The position numbers were made by a program, and so were the translations under genes. From the IMG/VR virus record IMGVR_UViG_3300023184_004167, positions 1 to 64,000 of that record: a stretch of DNA of 64,000 nucleotides; one strand, given 5' to 3'. Below, one piece after another: positions 1 through 32,013 of the stretch. The DNA is from a virus. Numbering within the stretch: position 1 is the first letter of the stretch; every line of letters begins with the position of its first letter. A model generated the notes under the pieces. It was not told where the DNA came from, did no database searches, and was given only the letters and a program-made list of their open reading frames with translations.

Positions 1-840
1 AAGGATTATTTTTATTCCCCTCATATCCAGTAACTTTTGATTACTAATTCTTAATACCGATTAGTTAGACTAATCACTCCTTGAGATATTGGTTACTCTC
101 TTACTACTCCACTCTCTTAAGCCTTGCGAGCTTACTCAGGATTCGACTCCTTAGAGGTTTTTGGTAAAAATACATATTGACTTGGGGTCTTTATGTGCCT
201 CTGACAGCCAGAGACTATGTAGGTACCTGTCACCAACATCTGACGGACACTTTTCCTTGATTGATTAATTTGATTAACTTATTCAAAGTTTTAGTGGTTA
301 GTGGATTGAAAAGGAAGCGGTCCGTCGCCAGCTCAGTTATCTTTTGAACAACCGAATACTAAACTCCCTTATGCAACATCCCTGTCGCCATATTTTTGCT
401 CATCTTCAAAACAAAACCCTTGGTAGAGTTAGGTTAAGGACAACAACAGCACCACCTGTACGATGTCATACCTTTCGGCTTTAAGACAACCTTAATATTG
501 GACTACGTAGTAATGAAGTTGGATAACAACATTTCCCACATAAGTCCTACGGATTATTCTTATTGATGTTCCCATCTCAACCTGACAACCCACATTGCCA
601 AGTAATTTAACCACATCTCCTACAGTGTTACCCTCGGGTACTGAGGTTAAATTATATTCCGCCTGTGTGCTTAAGATTATTACTAATCCGCAACTTACTT
701 AAACCAAGTAAGTCACTTTATCCCGATTTCTCGGTTTATTTGATGACTACACACCGCCAATTATCTTTTATCAGTAAACATCTCAAAATCAACCCGAAGG
801 TCTCATTATCAATATCCTGAATGGATAATATTTTTATTCA
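1..840 (-). ncRNA. Putative large structured non-coding RNA (GOLLD/ROOL-type candidate)
   Basis: No open reading frame of useful length exists here on either strand, yet the DNA is visibly richer in G and C than the AT-rich genes around it, as expected for a structured RNA. Hairpins seen directly: 118-134 (5-bp stem), a long-range helix pairing 242-248 with 320-326 continued by 253-258 with 311-316, a perfect 8-bp hairpin at 693-713, and 723-734, which read on the minus strand is CCGA-GAAA-TCGG, a GNRA tetraloop. The tetraloop and the neighbouring tRNA-like gene favour the minus strand. Giant ornate phage RNAs (GOLLD, ROOL) are known to sit beside phage tRNAs, so that class is the first candidate, but I could not match a consensus. 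The RNA may continue beyond position 1. The ends given are approximate. Confidence 0.6.
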
Positions 841-859
841 AAGAACTATTAAATTTAAA

Positions 860-980
860 GAAGATGCTGGAATATTTACAACCACCCATTCCCCCCACTT
901 GTAATCACCGATTTTATTTTTAATTTTAAAAATTACTTTCGGTAGGGAAAGAATAATGGAATCTTTACAACCCCATCTTC
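860..980 (-). ncRNA. Stem-bounded RNA element, 121 nt
   Basis: The ends pair as a 7-bp closing stem: GAAGATG at 860-866 with CATCTTC at 974-980. Inside there is an A/T hairpin near 921-940 and an imperfect direct repeat, GGAATnTTTACAACC, at 869-883 and 958-972. It lies between the large RNA candidate and the repeat-spaced tRNA-like array and resembles the other stem-bounded units of that array. Strand is inferred from the tRNA-like gene. Function is unknown. Confidence 0.35.
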
Positions 981-985
981 TTCAT

Positions 986-1038
986 TTGTTTCACAAAGTT
1001 AAGAAGAACTTTTCAATTAATCAAATCTTTTTGAAACT
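986..1038 (-). repeat. Hairpin spacer repeat, copy 1
   Basis: First of three copies (others at 1131-1180 and 1360-1410) of a roughly 50-nt sequence. Its ends, GTTTCA and TGAAAC, are complementary, with a second short helix CAAAG/CTTTT just inside, so each copy can fold into a hairpin. It directly follows one stem-bounded element and precedes another, so it may be a processing or spacer signal in a polycistronic RNA. Confidence 0.75.
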
Positions 1039-1043
1039 TTTTT

Positions 1044-1129
1044 TTTTCGGTTTGATTCACCAGTAGCGACATCACCATACCGCTCTTCCAATCAATTCTT
1101 TTTAGGGAATCTGAAGAATTACCCCGAAA
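1044..1129 (-). ncRNA. tRNA-like stem-bounded element, about 85 nt
   Basis: The ends TTTCGG and CCGAAA pair and match the ends of the adjacent tRNA-Met-like gene. On the minus strand the interior contains a stretch resembling a tRNA D-arm (TTGGAAGAGCGG). I could not build a regular T-arm or anticodon arm, so this may be a degenerate or unusual tRNA, or another structured RNA. It sits between two copies of the hairpin spacer repeat. Confidence 0.35.
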
Positions 1130-1130
1130 T

Positions 1131-1180
1131 GTTTCACAAAGTTAAGAAGAATTTTTCATTCAGTCAAATCTTTTTGAAAC
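1131..1180 (-). repeat. Hairpin spacer repeat, copy 2
   Basis: Second copy of the GTTTCA...TGAAAC hairpin repeat. It lies immediately 3' (minus strand) of the tRNA-Met-like gene. The outer stem is conserved while the central part differs by several bases from copy 1, which suggests that the fold matters. Confidence 0.75.
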
Positions 1181-1189
1181 TTTTTTTTG

Positions 1190-1261
1190 TTTCGGGAGTT
1201 GGATTTGCACCAACGACTAAAAGCTTATGAGACTTTTCTGCTACTACTGCATTATCCCGAA
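1190..1261 (-). tRNA. tRNA-Met-like (anticodon CAT)
   Basis: The minus strand folds as a cloverleaf. The 7-bp acceptor is TTCGGGA/TCCCGAA. The anticodon arm is AAAGT-CTCATAA-GCTTT with anticodon CAT. The variable loop is TAGTC and the T-arm is GTTGG-TGCAAAT-CCAAC, followed by discriminator A. The D-arm is weak: a 3-bp stem (TGC/GCA) and a loop lacking the usual GG pair, so the gene is somewhat degenerate. CCA is not encoded. It could be an elongator or initiator Met tRNA, or an Ile tRNA read after lysidine modification; the sequence does not decide. It sits in an array of stem-bounded elements beside a large structured RNA candidate. Confidence 0.75.
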
Positions 1262-1294
1262 ATATAATATATTTAAAGAACTAATTTTAAAAGA

Positions 1295-1337
1295 AGTCCC
1301 ACAAACTTTTAGGTTTTCTCAAACCATTCGTGGGACT
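1295..1337 (-). ncRNA. Small stem-bounded RNA element, 43 nt
   Basis: An 8-bp closing stem (AGTCCCAC at 1295-1302 with GTGGGACT at 1330-1337) encloses a perfect 5-bp hairpin (GGTTT-TCTC-AAACC, 1312-1325). The 7-8-bp closing stem resembles a tRNA acceptor, but the unit is far too short for a tRNA. It lies between copy 3 of the spacer repeat and the tRNA-Met-like gene. There is no T-tract suited to a terminator on either side. Confidence 0.45.
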
Positions 1338-1359
1338 CGGTGAGACTCTCATCTCATTT

Positions 1360-1410
1360 GTTTCACAAAACTAAGAAAAAATTCTCATTTAATCAAATTT
1401 TTTATGAAAC
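1360..1410 (-). repeat. Hairpin spacer repeat, copy 3
   Basis: Third and most diverged copy of the 50-nt repeat (GTTTCA at 1360-1365, TGAAAC at 1405-1410). A 79-codon plus-strand reading frame over this copy is not credible as a gene because it runs through the repeat and the RNA elements. Confidence 0.7.
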
Positions 1411-1472: not shown

Positions 1473-1564
1473 AACGACTACAAAGATATAAAATATTTTT
1501 TAAAAAGTCAAAAAAAATCCTGATAATTTTCATATCAGGACTTTTTTCATATTATGTTTTTTAT

Positions 1565-3679
1565 TTATTTCTGAACTAACATTCTAATGGTTTTTCTTGT
1601 ATTACCTATAATATATGTCACAAAATAAATACCATTTTGTAAATTACTATTGGTTATGGTTTTACTAAACACACCCAAATAACTTTGTGTTGTATAATTT
1701 CCAACCAATCTACTATACATATCAAATATTTGAATTTCAACTATTGAATTTTTTTGTGATGATGATTCAACATTTAAACTAAATGTACCATTATTTGGAT
1801 TTGGATATAAATTAACTTGGTCAATGGTTAAGTATTCATTACTCGCACCTCTTTGACCCACAGCACAATTTAAGTGTGTTAATGTTTTAGATACCGCAGC
1901 TCCTAATGCTCCACAAGTTGTTGAACTTTGTACTTTAAGTGCTCCTCCTCTAAACCCCGCATTAAATTGTAATGTTATAACAGAACTATCCATATTTGCA
2001 GATATGATTGTTGTTGATGCCGGTATTGTCCACCTAAATACAGTTATTGGTAATATTACTGAAGCCGCTGGTGATATTACAATGAAATTAACTGAACTTC
2101 CAATACAAGCATTATAGAATCCTGTATTTGAAATAAATGTAATTACTTTTGCCGGTGAGAATGATATTCCCTTTGCGGCTCCAAAATTTCCACAAGCCGA
2201 TTCCCCTTTAGCCGATAATCCCCCACCATTATAACCAGCATCAAAACTTAAATTAATTGAACTACTATCAGCATTTGCAGATATTATTGTTGTAAATGCA
2301 GGTTTAGTCCATCTGAATTTAATTGCGGGTACTTGTGCTATTGTAGGAATAGGATTTGTTAATGTATAATTAACTATTGCCCCAACACAAGGTGTTATTG
2401 TTCCATTTATTGCTGTTGGTGTTGGTGGTGCCGCTCTTGCAAATGCTAATGATGTTGCAGGTATTGAACCTATAGAATTACTTAATGAAACCGTAGCACC
2501 CCCTGAAGATTTTACAATAGTACTTATTGTATTAGTTCCTTGTCCGTTTGTTATGATATTACCAGCCCCACCTAAAACCCAAGCATAATAAACACCACTT
2601 TGATTCGCAACAGTGAATGTTCTAATTGTATCACATGTTTGAGGTTGAATTGAGGTTGTAATAGTAACAGGTGTTGGTAATCCTGTCGGCATTACACAAG
2701 TTCTTGTTATACTATCTGATGGGGGTGTACCCGTACAATTTGCAGGACTTGTTGTATAAGTTCTTATTTGAGTACCATTACTACAACTTGTCCATATTCC
2801 ATAAGTAAATGTACAAGGTAATCTACAAGTTCTTGTTATACTATCTGTTGGTGGTGTACCCGTACAATTTGCTGGACTTGTTGTATATGTTCTTGTTTGA
2901 GTTGTTCCGTTACAAGTTGTCCAACTACCATAAGTAAATGTACAAGGTAAACTACAAGCTCTTGTTATACTATCTGTTGGTGGTGTTCCAGTACATCCTG
3001 CAGGACTTGTTGTATATGTTCTTGTTTGAGTTGTTCCGTTACAAGTTGTCCAACTACCATAAGTAAATGTACACGCTGGTGGTGCAACATATTGATTTGA
3101 TGTTAATGATGTTGTGTAAACAAAATCACCTGTTTCATCACCACTATTATTACCTGCAACCGCTGCAATATAGAATTTAACTCTTGATTGTACCGCAGTT
3201 GGTACAGCTGGTGCAACCCAAGTTAAATTAGAATAAGTGTATGTTGCAGATGCCGTTGATGTTGGAGCATTTGCATGACTTAATTCATAATTACCATTTG
3301 CAATTGTTGGTGTTCCTTTTATGGATGTGTTAGTATTTTGTGTCACCCAAGTTCCAATAACTGCGTGAGTTAAAGTATCTATCGCTTTAATTGATACTCC
3401 CCATATTAATCTGTTTGCCGCAGAGTGAGTGATTTTAATGCTAAAAGGATATGATTGTCCTGCAGTAAATGTTGTAGGTAATCCGATAGCGGTTACACTA
3501 CCACCAGCAGGATTAACAGTTCCACTATGACAACTTGTGCAATTTCTTACTGTTGTACCGTTTAATGATGGTGCCGTTGAATATCCTGTCGGACAATTTG
3601 GATTACTTAAAACGAAAGCCGAACACATAAAAATTAATGTGGTTACAGCAATTAAAATTCTTTTGTTTAGTTTTTTCAT
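1565..3679 (-). CDS. Secreted T9SS cargo with choice-of-anchor-like N-terminus and three thrombospondin-like repeats
   Basis: This 704-residue protein starts with a signal peptide (about 1-25). A domain around residues 28-195 carries a CTSCH motif (47-51) followed by a Gly-rich beta region, as in Bacteroidota 'choice-of-anchor'/Reeler-like secreted proteins. CxxCH could bind haem, but the context fits the secreted-domain family better. Three 43-residue tandem repeats (203-331) have the pattern W..C....Q.RTY.....C.G....D, thrombospondin-1-like. Two Ig-like stretches follow. The C-terminus (about 625-704) is a T9SS sorting domain (NLYPNPNNGTF... ending in NGIYFV and a Lys/Arg-rich tail). It would be exported by the Sec and T9SS machinery of the host to the cell surface. 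No virion role is evident. It heads a cluster of secreted proteins that look host-derived. Confidence 0.85.
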   Translation of the reverse strand: MKKLNKRILIAVTTLIFMCSAFVLSNPNCPTGYSTAPSLNGTTVRNCTSCHSGTVNPAGGSVTAIGLPTTFTAGQSYPFSIKITHSAANRLIWGVSIKAIDTLTHAVIGTWVTQNTNTSIKGTPTIANGNYELSHANAPTSTASATYTYSNLTWVAPAVPTAVQSRVKFYIAAVAGNNSGDETGDFVYTTSLTSNQYVAPPACTFTYGSWTTCNGTTQTRTYTTSPAGCTGTPPTDSITRACSLPCTFTYGSWTTCNGTTQTRTYTTSPANCTGTPPTDSITRTCRLPCTFTYGIWTSCSNGTQIRTYTTSPANCTGTPPSDSITRTCVMPTGLPTPVTITTSIQPQTCDTIRTFTVANQSGVYYAWVLGGAGNIITNGQGTNTISTIVKSSGGATVSLSNSIGSIPATSLAFARAAPPTPTAINGTITPCVGAIVNYTLTNPIPTIAQVPAIKFRWTKPAFTTIISANADSSSINLSFDAGYNGGGLSAKGESACGNFGAAKGISFSPAKVITFISNTGFYNACIGSSVNFIVISPAASVILPITVFRWTIPASTTIISANMDSSVITLQFNAGFRGGALKVQSSTTCGALGAAVSKTLTHLNCAVGQRGASNEYLTIDQVNLYPNPNNGTFSLNVESSSQKNSIVEIQIFDMYSRLVGNYTTQSYLGVFSKTITNSNLQNGIYFVTYIIGNTRKTIRMLVQK
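2687..3073 (-). repeat. Three tandem 129-bp repeats encoding thrombospondin-like units
   Basis: Three consecutive in-frame 129-bp units lie in the T9SS cargo gene. The two units nearest the N-terminus (higher coordinates) are almost identical in DNA. The third has diverged (W.SCSNGTQ in place of WTTCNGTTQ), suggesting recent duplication of the first pair. Confidence 0.8.
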
Positions 3680-19574: not shown

Positions 19575-20414
19575 CTAATAATTTGTAATTAACAATTCTT
19601 CCGCTAAATTTTGTTTTACACCTTTTTTCGCCGCGGCCGCTTTGGCAAATGATTTTTTATGCCAATTATACACATTTTCAGGAAACCAAGTATGTAATTC
19701 AGGAAAATCATAATATGACATAGAAAACTTACCCTGAACTTGTTGTAAGACATTTGCTAATCTTTCATGGTCTGCTCTTCCAAAATCATGATTAGAATAA
19801 TAATTTTCAGTTTTATAGTATGGGGGGTCTAGATAGATATATGTCTTTTCTGAATCATATTTCTTGATAACATCCTCAAAGTCCATATTCTCAACATCCG
19901 TAATCTTAAGAAAGTGTTCAACCCAATCAGGCTTACTTAACTTATCCCTAAATGACAAATACTTACAGCGATACTTACCCTTTAAATCAATAAAGGAAGA
20001 TGTCTCAGGCTTACTACCACTAAACACCTGAGTTAATACATAAACATATTTAGCGGCAACTTGATAATCAGGATAGTTAATTGTAAAACCACTACCAAAC
20101 ACTTCTGATTGATACTCTTTAAATGTTTCTCTATATGTGTCAGGAGTTTGTATTGTTCCTATTTGTTGAACCTGTATTCCATCCAATGCTCTTTGCAGTT
20201 CGGACGGATTCTGAACACATCTGAATAGATTGTAATTTAGTGGATTAAAGTCATTATAAACAACTTTCTTTAGGTTTGGGTACTTGGATAAGTCCATATT
20301 ATAAAAACACCAGAACATACCTCCAAATGTCTCTAAATACACCTCCATATCTTGTGGATATAAATCCACAATCCATTTACCAATTTTTGATTTTCCTCCT
20401 ATATAACTTAACAT
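19575..20414 (-). CDS. DNA adenine methylase, D12 (Dam-like) class
   Basis: 279 residues. It starts MLSYIGGKSKIGKWI (AdoMet site, with YLETFGGMFW in place of the usual FxGGG), a helical insert (about 75-180), then the catalytic motif YIYLDPPYYKTENYY (about 195-210). This order is that of alpha-class D12 N6-adenine methylases. No restriction partner is adjacent. It likely modifies phage DNA to evade host restriction. Confidence 0.9.
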   Translation of the reverse strand: MLSYIGGKSKIGKWIVDLYPQDMEVYLETFGGMFWCFYNMDLSKYPNLKKVVYNDFNPLNYNLFRCVQNPSELQRALDGIQVQQIGTIQTPDTYRETFKEYQSEVFGSGFTINYPDYQVAAKYVYVLTQVFSGSKPETSSFIDLKGKYRCKYLSFRDKLSKPDWVEHFLKITDVENMDFEDVIKKYDSEKTYIYLDPPYYKTENYYSNHDFGRADHERLANVLQQVQGKFSMSYYDFPELHTWFPENVYNWHKKSFAKAAAAKKGVKQNLAEELLITNY

Positions 20415-31116: not shown

Positions 31117-32013
31117 TTATTCTTTAGTTCTTTTTATTATTAAAATTTCGTGAGAGTCTTTTGAATTACCTATACCCATTTCTTTTCTATTTTTTCCTAT
31201 CCTTTTTTCCCCGTTCCCCATTGAATAATTCCATTTAGGGAAAAATTGTTCAAACTCAGAATAATAATTTCTAATGGTTTCACAATTATTATAAGACAAA
31301 ACAAAATCTCCATTATGTTCCCTTAGTAAGTCTCTAAGTTTTTCGTGATTAAAAGAATTATGATGTACTGGTATGTTTCTCATCGGATATATCCCAGTAA
31401 ACATTTTATTATCTTCATCTTTTTCTAAATAATATGGAGGGTCAAGATATAAAAATTCGTCAGGATTTTTTGTGATTACATTTTCAAAATCAGATTCAAA
31501 AACACTAAGTGTAGGACAATTAAAATTTCTAATAATTTCAACCATTTTTGACCATTTTTTGTCATTTAAATAAACGGATGACGCCCAACCCAAATATCCA
31601 GGTCCATAAGATGTGTTATGATTAAAATAATAATAGGATGCCGCTGTTATTTTATCTAGTTCAACAGAATTATCTCTTTTATAATGGTTAGTTTTCCAAT
31701 TTGATAGCATCACTTGGGTTTTATCCCAAGTCATTAATACTTCTTTAACTCTATCATATTCTTCGGTTGTTGGTTCAATTGTTTTTAATTTATCCGCTAA
31801 TTCATTTGGATTATCTAATAACACGTTCCAAAAATTAACAAGTGCGTCAAATATGTCGTACCCAATTACTATTTTACCTAATGACGCCAAGTGAACCTCT
31901 AAAGAACCTCCACCAATAAATGGTGATATAATTTTATCATAATCTTTAATAAACGGCATTATTTGTTTTATCGCTCTTGTCTTACCTCCAGCATATCTAA
32001 TGGGTGTTTTCAT
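31117..32013 (-). CDS. DNA adenine methylase, D12 class
   Basis: 298 residues. RYAGGKTRAIKQI at the start and FIGGGSLEVHLAS form the AdoMet site, and FLYLDPPYYLEKDED (about 192-207) is the catalytic DPPY motif. It overlaps the upstream gene at 32010 by 4 bp (ATGA), which suggests co-translation and possibly a modification-restriction or modification-antirestriction pair. Confidence 0.9.
   Translation of the reverse strand: MKTPIRYAGGKTRAIKQIMPFIKDYDKIISPFIGGGSLEVHLASLGKIVIGYDIFDALVNFWNVLLDNPNELADKLKTIEPTTEEYDRVKEVLMTWDKTQVMLSNWKTNHYKRDNSVELDKITAASYYYFNHNTSYGPGYLGWASSVYLNDKKWSKMVEIIRNFNCPTLSVFESDFENVITKNPDEFLYLDPPYYLEKDEDNKMFTGIYPMRNIPVHHNSFNHEKLRDLLREHNGDFVLSYNNCETIRNYYSEFEQFFPKWNYSMGNGEKRIGKNRKEMGIGNSKDSHEILIIKRTKE

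Follow-up and report, generated by a model that had tools for sequence, protein, structure and literature searches.

A GOLLD RNA of a large phage with a putative Bacteroidota host, preceded by an rRNA-type promoter, hairpin and boxA leader

Results

A gene-free stretch at the start of a large-phage contig

The stretch of DNA analysed here (the window) comprises the first 64 kb of the 138,365-base virus record IMGVR_UViG_3300023184_004167, and the large-phage genes of this record include those for a baseplate wedge, a tape measure, ribonucleotide reductase, DNA polymerase, helicases, a Hoc-like decoration protein and SbcC. A sequence-only reading had described about 840 bp without a gene, richer in GC, at positions 1-840; indeed, no open reading frame longer than 51 aa lies within 1-840, the gap actually reaches 1564, and the GC content of 1-840 (37.9% versus 31.7% for the window) is at the 98th percentile of 840-nt stretches. 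The minus-strand fold was better than that of its own shuffles (z -4.1; 0 of 20 shuffles as good), and the plus-strand fold of 1-840 was no better than shuffles (z -1.0). Protein coding in 1-840 was ruled out by the absence of an open reading frame above 51 aa together with the covariation described below. At the 1564/1565 border ends a minus-strand gene (1565-3679) for a phage-encoded, secreted 704-aa protein that has repeats and, at its C-terminus, a sorting domain of the type IX secretion system (T9SS; Por_Secre_tail, 42.3 bits). Because this T9SS tail is accompanied by Bacteroidota-type promoters and by similarity of the leader to those of Bacteroidota, the host of the phage is suggested to be a member of the Bacteroidota.

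The minus strand encodes a GOLLD RNA

The domains and structural elements of the RNA are as follows.

1-371, minus strand: GOLLD 3' domain (Rfam RF02032, 251.8 bits; 75 covarying pairs in 53 homologues)
242-250, minus strand: long-range core helix, 3' strand (99.8% paired; double changes at 7 of 8 pairs)
259-310, minus strand: variable linker, here without a tRNA (alignment; ARAGORN)
311-318, minus strand: pairs as 3' strand with 363-370 in a helix that crosses the core helix (100% paired; double changes at 5 of 8 pairs)
319-326, minus strand: long-range core helix, 5' strand (partner of 242-250)
372-760, minus strand: 5' domain of the GOLLD class that this phage group carries (alignment and pair counts; outer conserved helix 749-754 with 665-670)
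723-734, minus strand: GAAA-tetraloop hairpin with an invariant loop and a covarying stem (53/53 paired)

The sequence-only reading had proposed a giant RNA of the GOLLD or ROOL type or a similarly large RNA of a new class, and the GOLLD branch of that proposal was borne out. On the minus strand, 1-371 scored 251.8 bits against the Rfam GOLLD model RF02032 (gathering score 150; E 2e-70), and the match spans model positions 1-381 of 416. Among the covariance models that the reading had named, only GOLLD exceeded its threshold; no Rfam match to ROOL, OLE or HEARO was obtained, whether at the gathering score across the whole window or across 1-1600 with E values up to 1. Rfam matches to Hatchet and RAGATH-25 near 1198-1331 and 813-859 were far under the cut-off. 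The last ~35 nt of the GOLLD 3' end are missing because the contig begins inside the RNA, and with the missing end counted in, the total length of the RNA is ~790-830 nt. Circular permutation as the source of the missing 3' end was rejected, as the record contains no second GOLLD match and no terminal repeat. These data indicate that the minus strand of approximately 1-840, continuing past the contig start, almost certainly encodes a GOLLD RNA, in a large phage whose host is putatively a member of the Bacteroidota.

The sole BLAST matches of the RNA among phages were LR745206 (634 kb), which has a GOLLD match of 287 bits, and LR756502 (642 kb), both of them huge and uncultured; plasmids gave no match. 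In a three-way alignment of the window with these two phages, the region 5' of the Rfam model was homologous as well. A motif from this 5' domain, AATAAAC-N3-GAAA-N3-GGATAAAGT, matched at least 120 viral contigs; in species genomes of bacteria and archaea (257 Gb) it had two matches, both attributed to chance. The 3'-domain motif follows in 121 loci with the exact 5' motif, the distance between the two motifs is only 635-711 nt across all loci, and 12 of 13 examined loci without a visible 3' motif matched the GOLLD model. Since both motifs recur at little-varying spacing and the GOLLD model matches, the window copy is a member of a GOLLD class found commonly among free-virus contigs. An initial viral-contig pattern, GAGTA-N9-C-NN-AAGGAGTG, was discarded as chance, because none of its 75 matches had a GOLLD match.

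Structure and covariation of the two domains

The structure alignment consisted of 53 dereplicated sequences from viral contigs. Across both domains it supported 180 pairs, with 96.5% of cells paired and double changes at 152 pairs; the 5' domain contributed 105 pairs (96.5% of cells paired, 87 doubly changed) and the 3' domain 75 pairs (96.5%, 65 doubly changed). None of 500 shuffles reached these values, and structures slid along the alignment paired in just 33-43% of cells (~40% for a one-column slide of the 5' domain). The homologue alignment that the sequence-only reading had recommended thus revealed massive covariation and no conserved reading frame. A profile of the 5' domain recovered held-out loci at 225-435 bits. 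This domain is absent from the Rfam model and may be the 5' domain of GOLLD env-38 itself; the collected homologues, from more than 120 viral contigs and with 53 in the alignment, add this part outside the model to the GOLLD family.

The minus-strand GAAA tetraloop at 723-734 noted in the earlier reading is paired in all 53 sequences, with three of its four pairs doubly changed; it may correspond to P11a, whose GAAA loop L11a is a conserved feature of the GOLLD 5' domain (PMC12286853). The long-range helix proposed between 242-258 and 311-326 held in part. The core, formed by 242-250 and 319-326, shows pairing in 99.8% of cells and double changes at 7 of 8 pairs, but conservation does not extend to the outer part between 251-258 and 311-318 (paired in 6, 20, 47, 47 and 31 of 53 sequences). 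Because 311-318 pairs with 363-370, the core helix is crossed by this second helix; the nested Rfam consensus leaves the core helix unpaired, and the core helix is a pseudoknot or a contact between chains. Furthermore, all 52 of 52 sequences have a self-complementary loop (GC in 31, UCGA in 19, AU in 2) where the model places the symmetric kissing loop, the register (L21a, bridge B8) being assigned via model position, and self-complementary L21a has been read as a contact between chains (PMC12286853).

The RNA therefore belongs to the known GOLLD family and is not a new class. A giant RNA class unrelated to GOLLD, ROOL, OLE or HEARO could be argued from the Rfam model, which covers the 3' half only and leaves the 5' domain unmodelled, but this idea is refuted by the 251.8-bit match to the GOLLD model, which also finds 12 of the 13 loci that have the 5' motif without an obvious 3' motif, and its probability is vanishingly small. 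It is also very improbable that the window holds a decaying, non-functional GOLLD copy: the contig lacks the GOLLD 3' end and the adjoining tRNA is divergent, as decay might produce, yet the window copy obeys the covarying pairs of both domains, and its 3' end was lost to an assembly boundary, with no visible deletion.

A promoter, a hairpin and a boxA precede GOLLD

The order of elements upstream of the RNA in the window is promoter, long hairpin, boxA and then GOLLD.

994-1025, minus strand: Bacteroidota-type promoter, TTTG-N20-TAACTTTG, upstream of GOLLD (promoter match)
856-984, minus strand: long leader hairpin between promoter and boxA (fold z -2.9)
837-846, minus strand: boxA GTTCTTTGAA of the GOLLD leader (same element in Bacteroidota rRNA leaders)

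The leaders of the homologues contain a Bacteroidota promoter (TTTG or a TTGACA-like element, ~20 nt, TAnnTTTG), usually a small hairpin of variable sequence, and the boxA GTTCTTTGAA. In the dereplicated set of 72 loci, boxA (GTTCTTT[GA]A) was present in 57, versus 0.17 in mononucleotide shuffles, and the promoter in 63, versus 3.4; in a second dereplication boxA was found in 46 of 62 loci, versus 0.43 in dinucleotide shuffles. Control stretches inside the RNA contained no boxA. About one fifth of the homologues have no exact boxA in the stretch searched, and several leaders without a match carry GTTCTTAGAA instead, or a boxA nearer than that stretch. A stem of at least 5 bp adjoins boxA in 28 of 53 leaders (8.6 in shuffles). 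Within the window itself, the promoter pattern has 13 matches versus 3.2 expected, four of them at 994-1512, and boxA has 6 matches versus 2.65 expected; a single boxA in the window would thus mean little alone, and the weight comes from the homologues. Eight loci (L173, L095, L115, L122, L133, L143, L152 and L166) share a recurring leader element, AGGTGATGAAAGATACTCGGTATTCAAA, located between promoter and boxA.

The leader resembles those of host rRNA operons

The phage leaders were compared with eight Bacteroidota 16S leaders on plasmid-collection records. In seven of the eight, GTTCTTTGA lies 123-222 nt before the 16S gene, and six of them also have a promoter-like match upstream of boxA, Aureibacter being the one that had none by the pattern used. 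A foldable hairpin separates promoter and boxA in most of them. The 16S leader of Phocaeicola massiliensis, for example, contains TTTGG-N-TATCTTTGCAAAAC, CTTTCC...GGAAAG and GTTCTTTGAA, in the same layout as the phage leaders. The phage leader thus shares with rRNA operon leaders bearing boxB and boxA (Bacteroidota, E. coli) the order of promoter, hairpin and boxA, and its GTTCTTTGAA is identical to the host boxA; the two differ in that the phage leader drives a giant RNA and the host leader 16S rRNA, and in the sequence past boxA. In E. coli rRNA operons, boxB, boxA and boxC follow the promoter in that order (PMC10250234), and the boxA consensus GYTCTTTAANA is gamma-proteobacterial (PMC5725501). 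The boxA before a Legionella CRISPR array is GTTCTTTAAAA (PMC7862264); like the phage element, the boxA sites upstream of CRISPR arrays, as cited in that paper, stand ahead of a long untranslated RNA, although both the RNA and the host are different.

A tRNA and further small transcription units lie upstream

The features between the GOLLD promoter and the end of the gene-free stretch are as follows.

1050-1130, minus strand: possible small RNA behind the promoter at 1137-1168 (promoter match; fold z -0.9, no better than shuffles)
1137-1168, minus strand: promoter copy 2, in an 83% identical 69-nt repeat (repeat and promoter match)
1189-1261, minus strand: tRNA-Met (CAU), divergent, paired at 1:72 (Rfam, ARAGORN)
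1273-1281, minus strand: second boxA-like site, GTTCTTTAA, 12 nt before the tRNA (boxA match)
1290-1360, minus strand: two leader hairpins, located between promoter and second boxA (fold of 1264-1384, z -3.2)
1366-1397, minus strand: promoter copy 3, which precedes the tRNA unit (repeat and promoter match)
1481-1512, minus strand: fourth promoter-like site, upstream of a ~70-nt element at 1417-1487 (promoter match)

What had been called a tRNA-like gene was identified by Rfam and ARAGORN as a tRNA with anticodon CAU. An initiator function was ruled out for the window copy by its paired 1:72; as in initiator tRNAs, 1:72 is unpaired in 24 of 31 distinct upstream tRNA-Met genes, a count that includes the window gene (unpaired for example at L223, L249 and L115). 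A tRNA, most often tRNA-Met, lies within 1 kb upstream of GOLLD in 19 of 59 loci and a tRNA lies within 1 kb downstream in 16 of 47; a tmRNA lies upstream in 6 of 13 loci scanned with Rfam. Phage tmRNA genes near GOLLD were seen at L091, L127, L128, L143, L160 and L186 (also L231), several with long tRNA arrays. BoxA sites precede 7 of 69 tRNA or tmRNA genes that are first of their cluster, versus 14 of 861 random positions.

A 69-nt repeat occurs in three copies that are 80-83% identical (982-1050, 1125-1193 and 1354-1422), each holding a minus-strand promoter of the Bacteroidota type as well as a T/A run. These three promoters and the fourth at 1481-1512 split 840-1512 into four small transcription units. 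The minus strands of 1050-1130 and 1417-1487 are candidate small or tRNA-like RNAs behind their own promoters; neither had an Rfam match, and their folds were no better than shuffles.

Leader and 5' domain travel together

GOLLDs of other lineages were sampled via the loci already in the homologue collection. Of 14 such loci, 13 (the Streptococcus-phage kind and others; 198-283 bits in the 3' domain) had no match to the 5' domain, and the checked GOLLDs of these kinds had no boxA within 900 nt upstream. The sole exception, L231, has both. The boxA leader and the 5' domain therefore travel together, since the other loci have neither and L231 has both. GOLLDs of Streptococcus phages (for example IPP8 and IC1) resemble the window RNA in the 3' domain (263-283 bits), but differ from it in having no detectable 5'-domain homology and no boxA within 900 nt upstream.

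Like GOLLD env-38 (RF02032, PMC12286853), the window RNA matches the 3' domain model, is ~800 nt long, is divided into a 5' and a 3' domain, has a self-complementary kissing loop and lies in a phage genome with a Met-tRNA upstream, and the conserved GAAA loop in its 5' domain may have a counterpart there as well; the window copy differs in lying in a putative Bacteroidota phage behind an rRNA-type boxA leader, which is unmentioned in the literature found. ROOL RNA is similar in size, phage tRNA neighbourhood and nanocage formation, but the window RNA has no Rfam ROOL match. No link between GOLLD and boxA was found in the open literature searched, whose coverage did not extend to the original GOLLD report (Weinberg 2009), and within that literature the boxA leader of GOLLD has not been reported previously.

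Discussion

The locus as a whole is probably best explained as a GOLLD RNA with a promoter-hairpin-boxA leader, transcribed by host polymerase with rRNA-type Nus antitermination. Host RNA polymerase would start at the promoter at 994-1025 and transcribe the leader hairpin (856-984) and then boxA (837-846), host NusB-S10 would bind the nascent boxA, and the resulting Nus complex would render the polymerase Rho-resistant and possibly aid long-range folding, as on rRNA operons. Nus antitermination fits GOLLD because the RNA is untranslated, highly structured and ~800 nt long. The RNA would probably be produced together with the phage tRNAs, and, once folded, would assemble into a hollow 14-mer nanocage such as that formed by env-38 (PMC12286853); cage assembly in this phage is probable, as the RNA is homologous to env-38 and its contact loop is conserved.

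The sequence, position and conservation of boxA and its match to host leaders suggest that rRNA-type Nus antitermination is likely. Alternatively, GTTCTTTGAA could be part of the GOLLD RNA, as a 5' structural or processing element with no antitermination role, an idea that draws on its strong conservation and its proximity to the 5' domain. However, the distance from boxA to the 5' domain varies by tens of nt, boxA is missing from GOLLDs of the Streptococcus-phage kind, the identical sequence follows a promoter and hairpin in host rRNA leaders, and a boxA-like site also precedes the window tRNA, so that this alternative appears rather unlikely. It is reasonably likely that a large group of Bacteroidota phages makes GOLLD by means of a copied host rRNA-operon leader and that Nus antitermination, and perhaps its RNA-chaperone effect, is required to produce the giant RNA.

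What the cage would do is a matter of tentative guesswork: storage, shielding or sequestration of translation components is possible but doubtful. It might hold phage tRNAs, in keeping with the tRNAs that lie near GOLLD (19/59 loci upstream, 16/47 downstream, some with tmRNA); it might be a decoy for ribosomes or ribosomal proteins, as a ribosome pull-down is mentioned in PMC12286853 and boxA recruits S10; or it might enclose only its own linker, a disordered linker having been seen within the cage (PMC12286853). These proposals, each of them speculative, are weighed against a linker that here contains no tRNA, and sequence decides among none of them. According to work cited in PMC7567579, the GOLLD of a Lactobacillus brevis prophage accumulates in the lytic phase, yet is dispensable for phage production.

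If the antitermination reading is correct, GOLLD would be made like a piece of the ribosome, within an island that also holds phage tRNAs and, at some loci, a tmRNA. The leader would then tie GOLLD to the translation machinery through its synthesis, beyond its tRNA neighbours, and a conserved rRNA-type leader would offer a concrete mechanism, resting on a 10-nt element, for the transcription and folding of giant RNAs. The promoter-hairpin-boxA arrangement thus suggests a way in which such giant phage RNAs could be made.

Two further observations concern other parts of the material. Two DNA methyltransferase genes, both phrog_56, lie on the minus strand of the window at 19575-20414 and 31117-32013. 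At the homologous locus L205, a pistol ribozyme (837-912, minus strand; 69.4 bits) precedes the GOLLD 3' domain by ~360 nt and is perhaps a processing site of that GOLLD.
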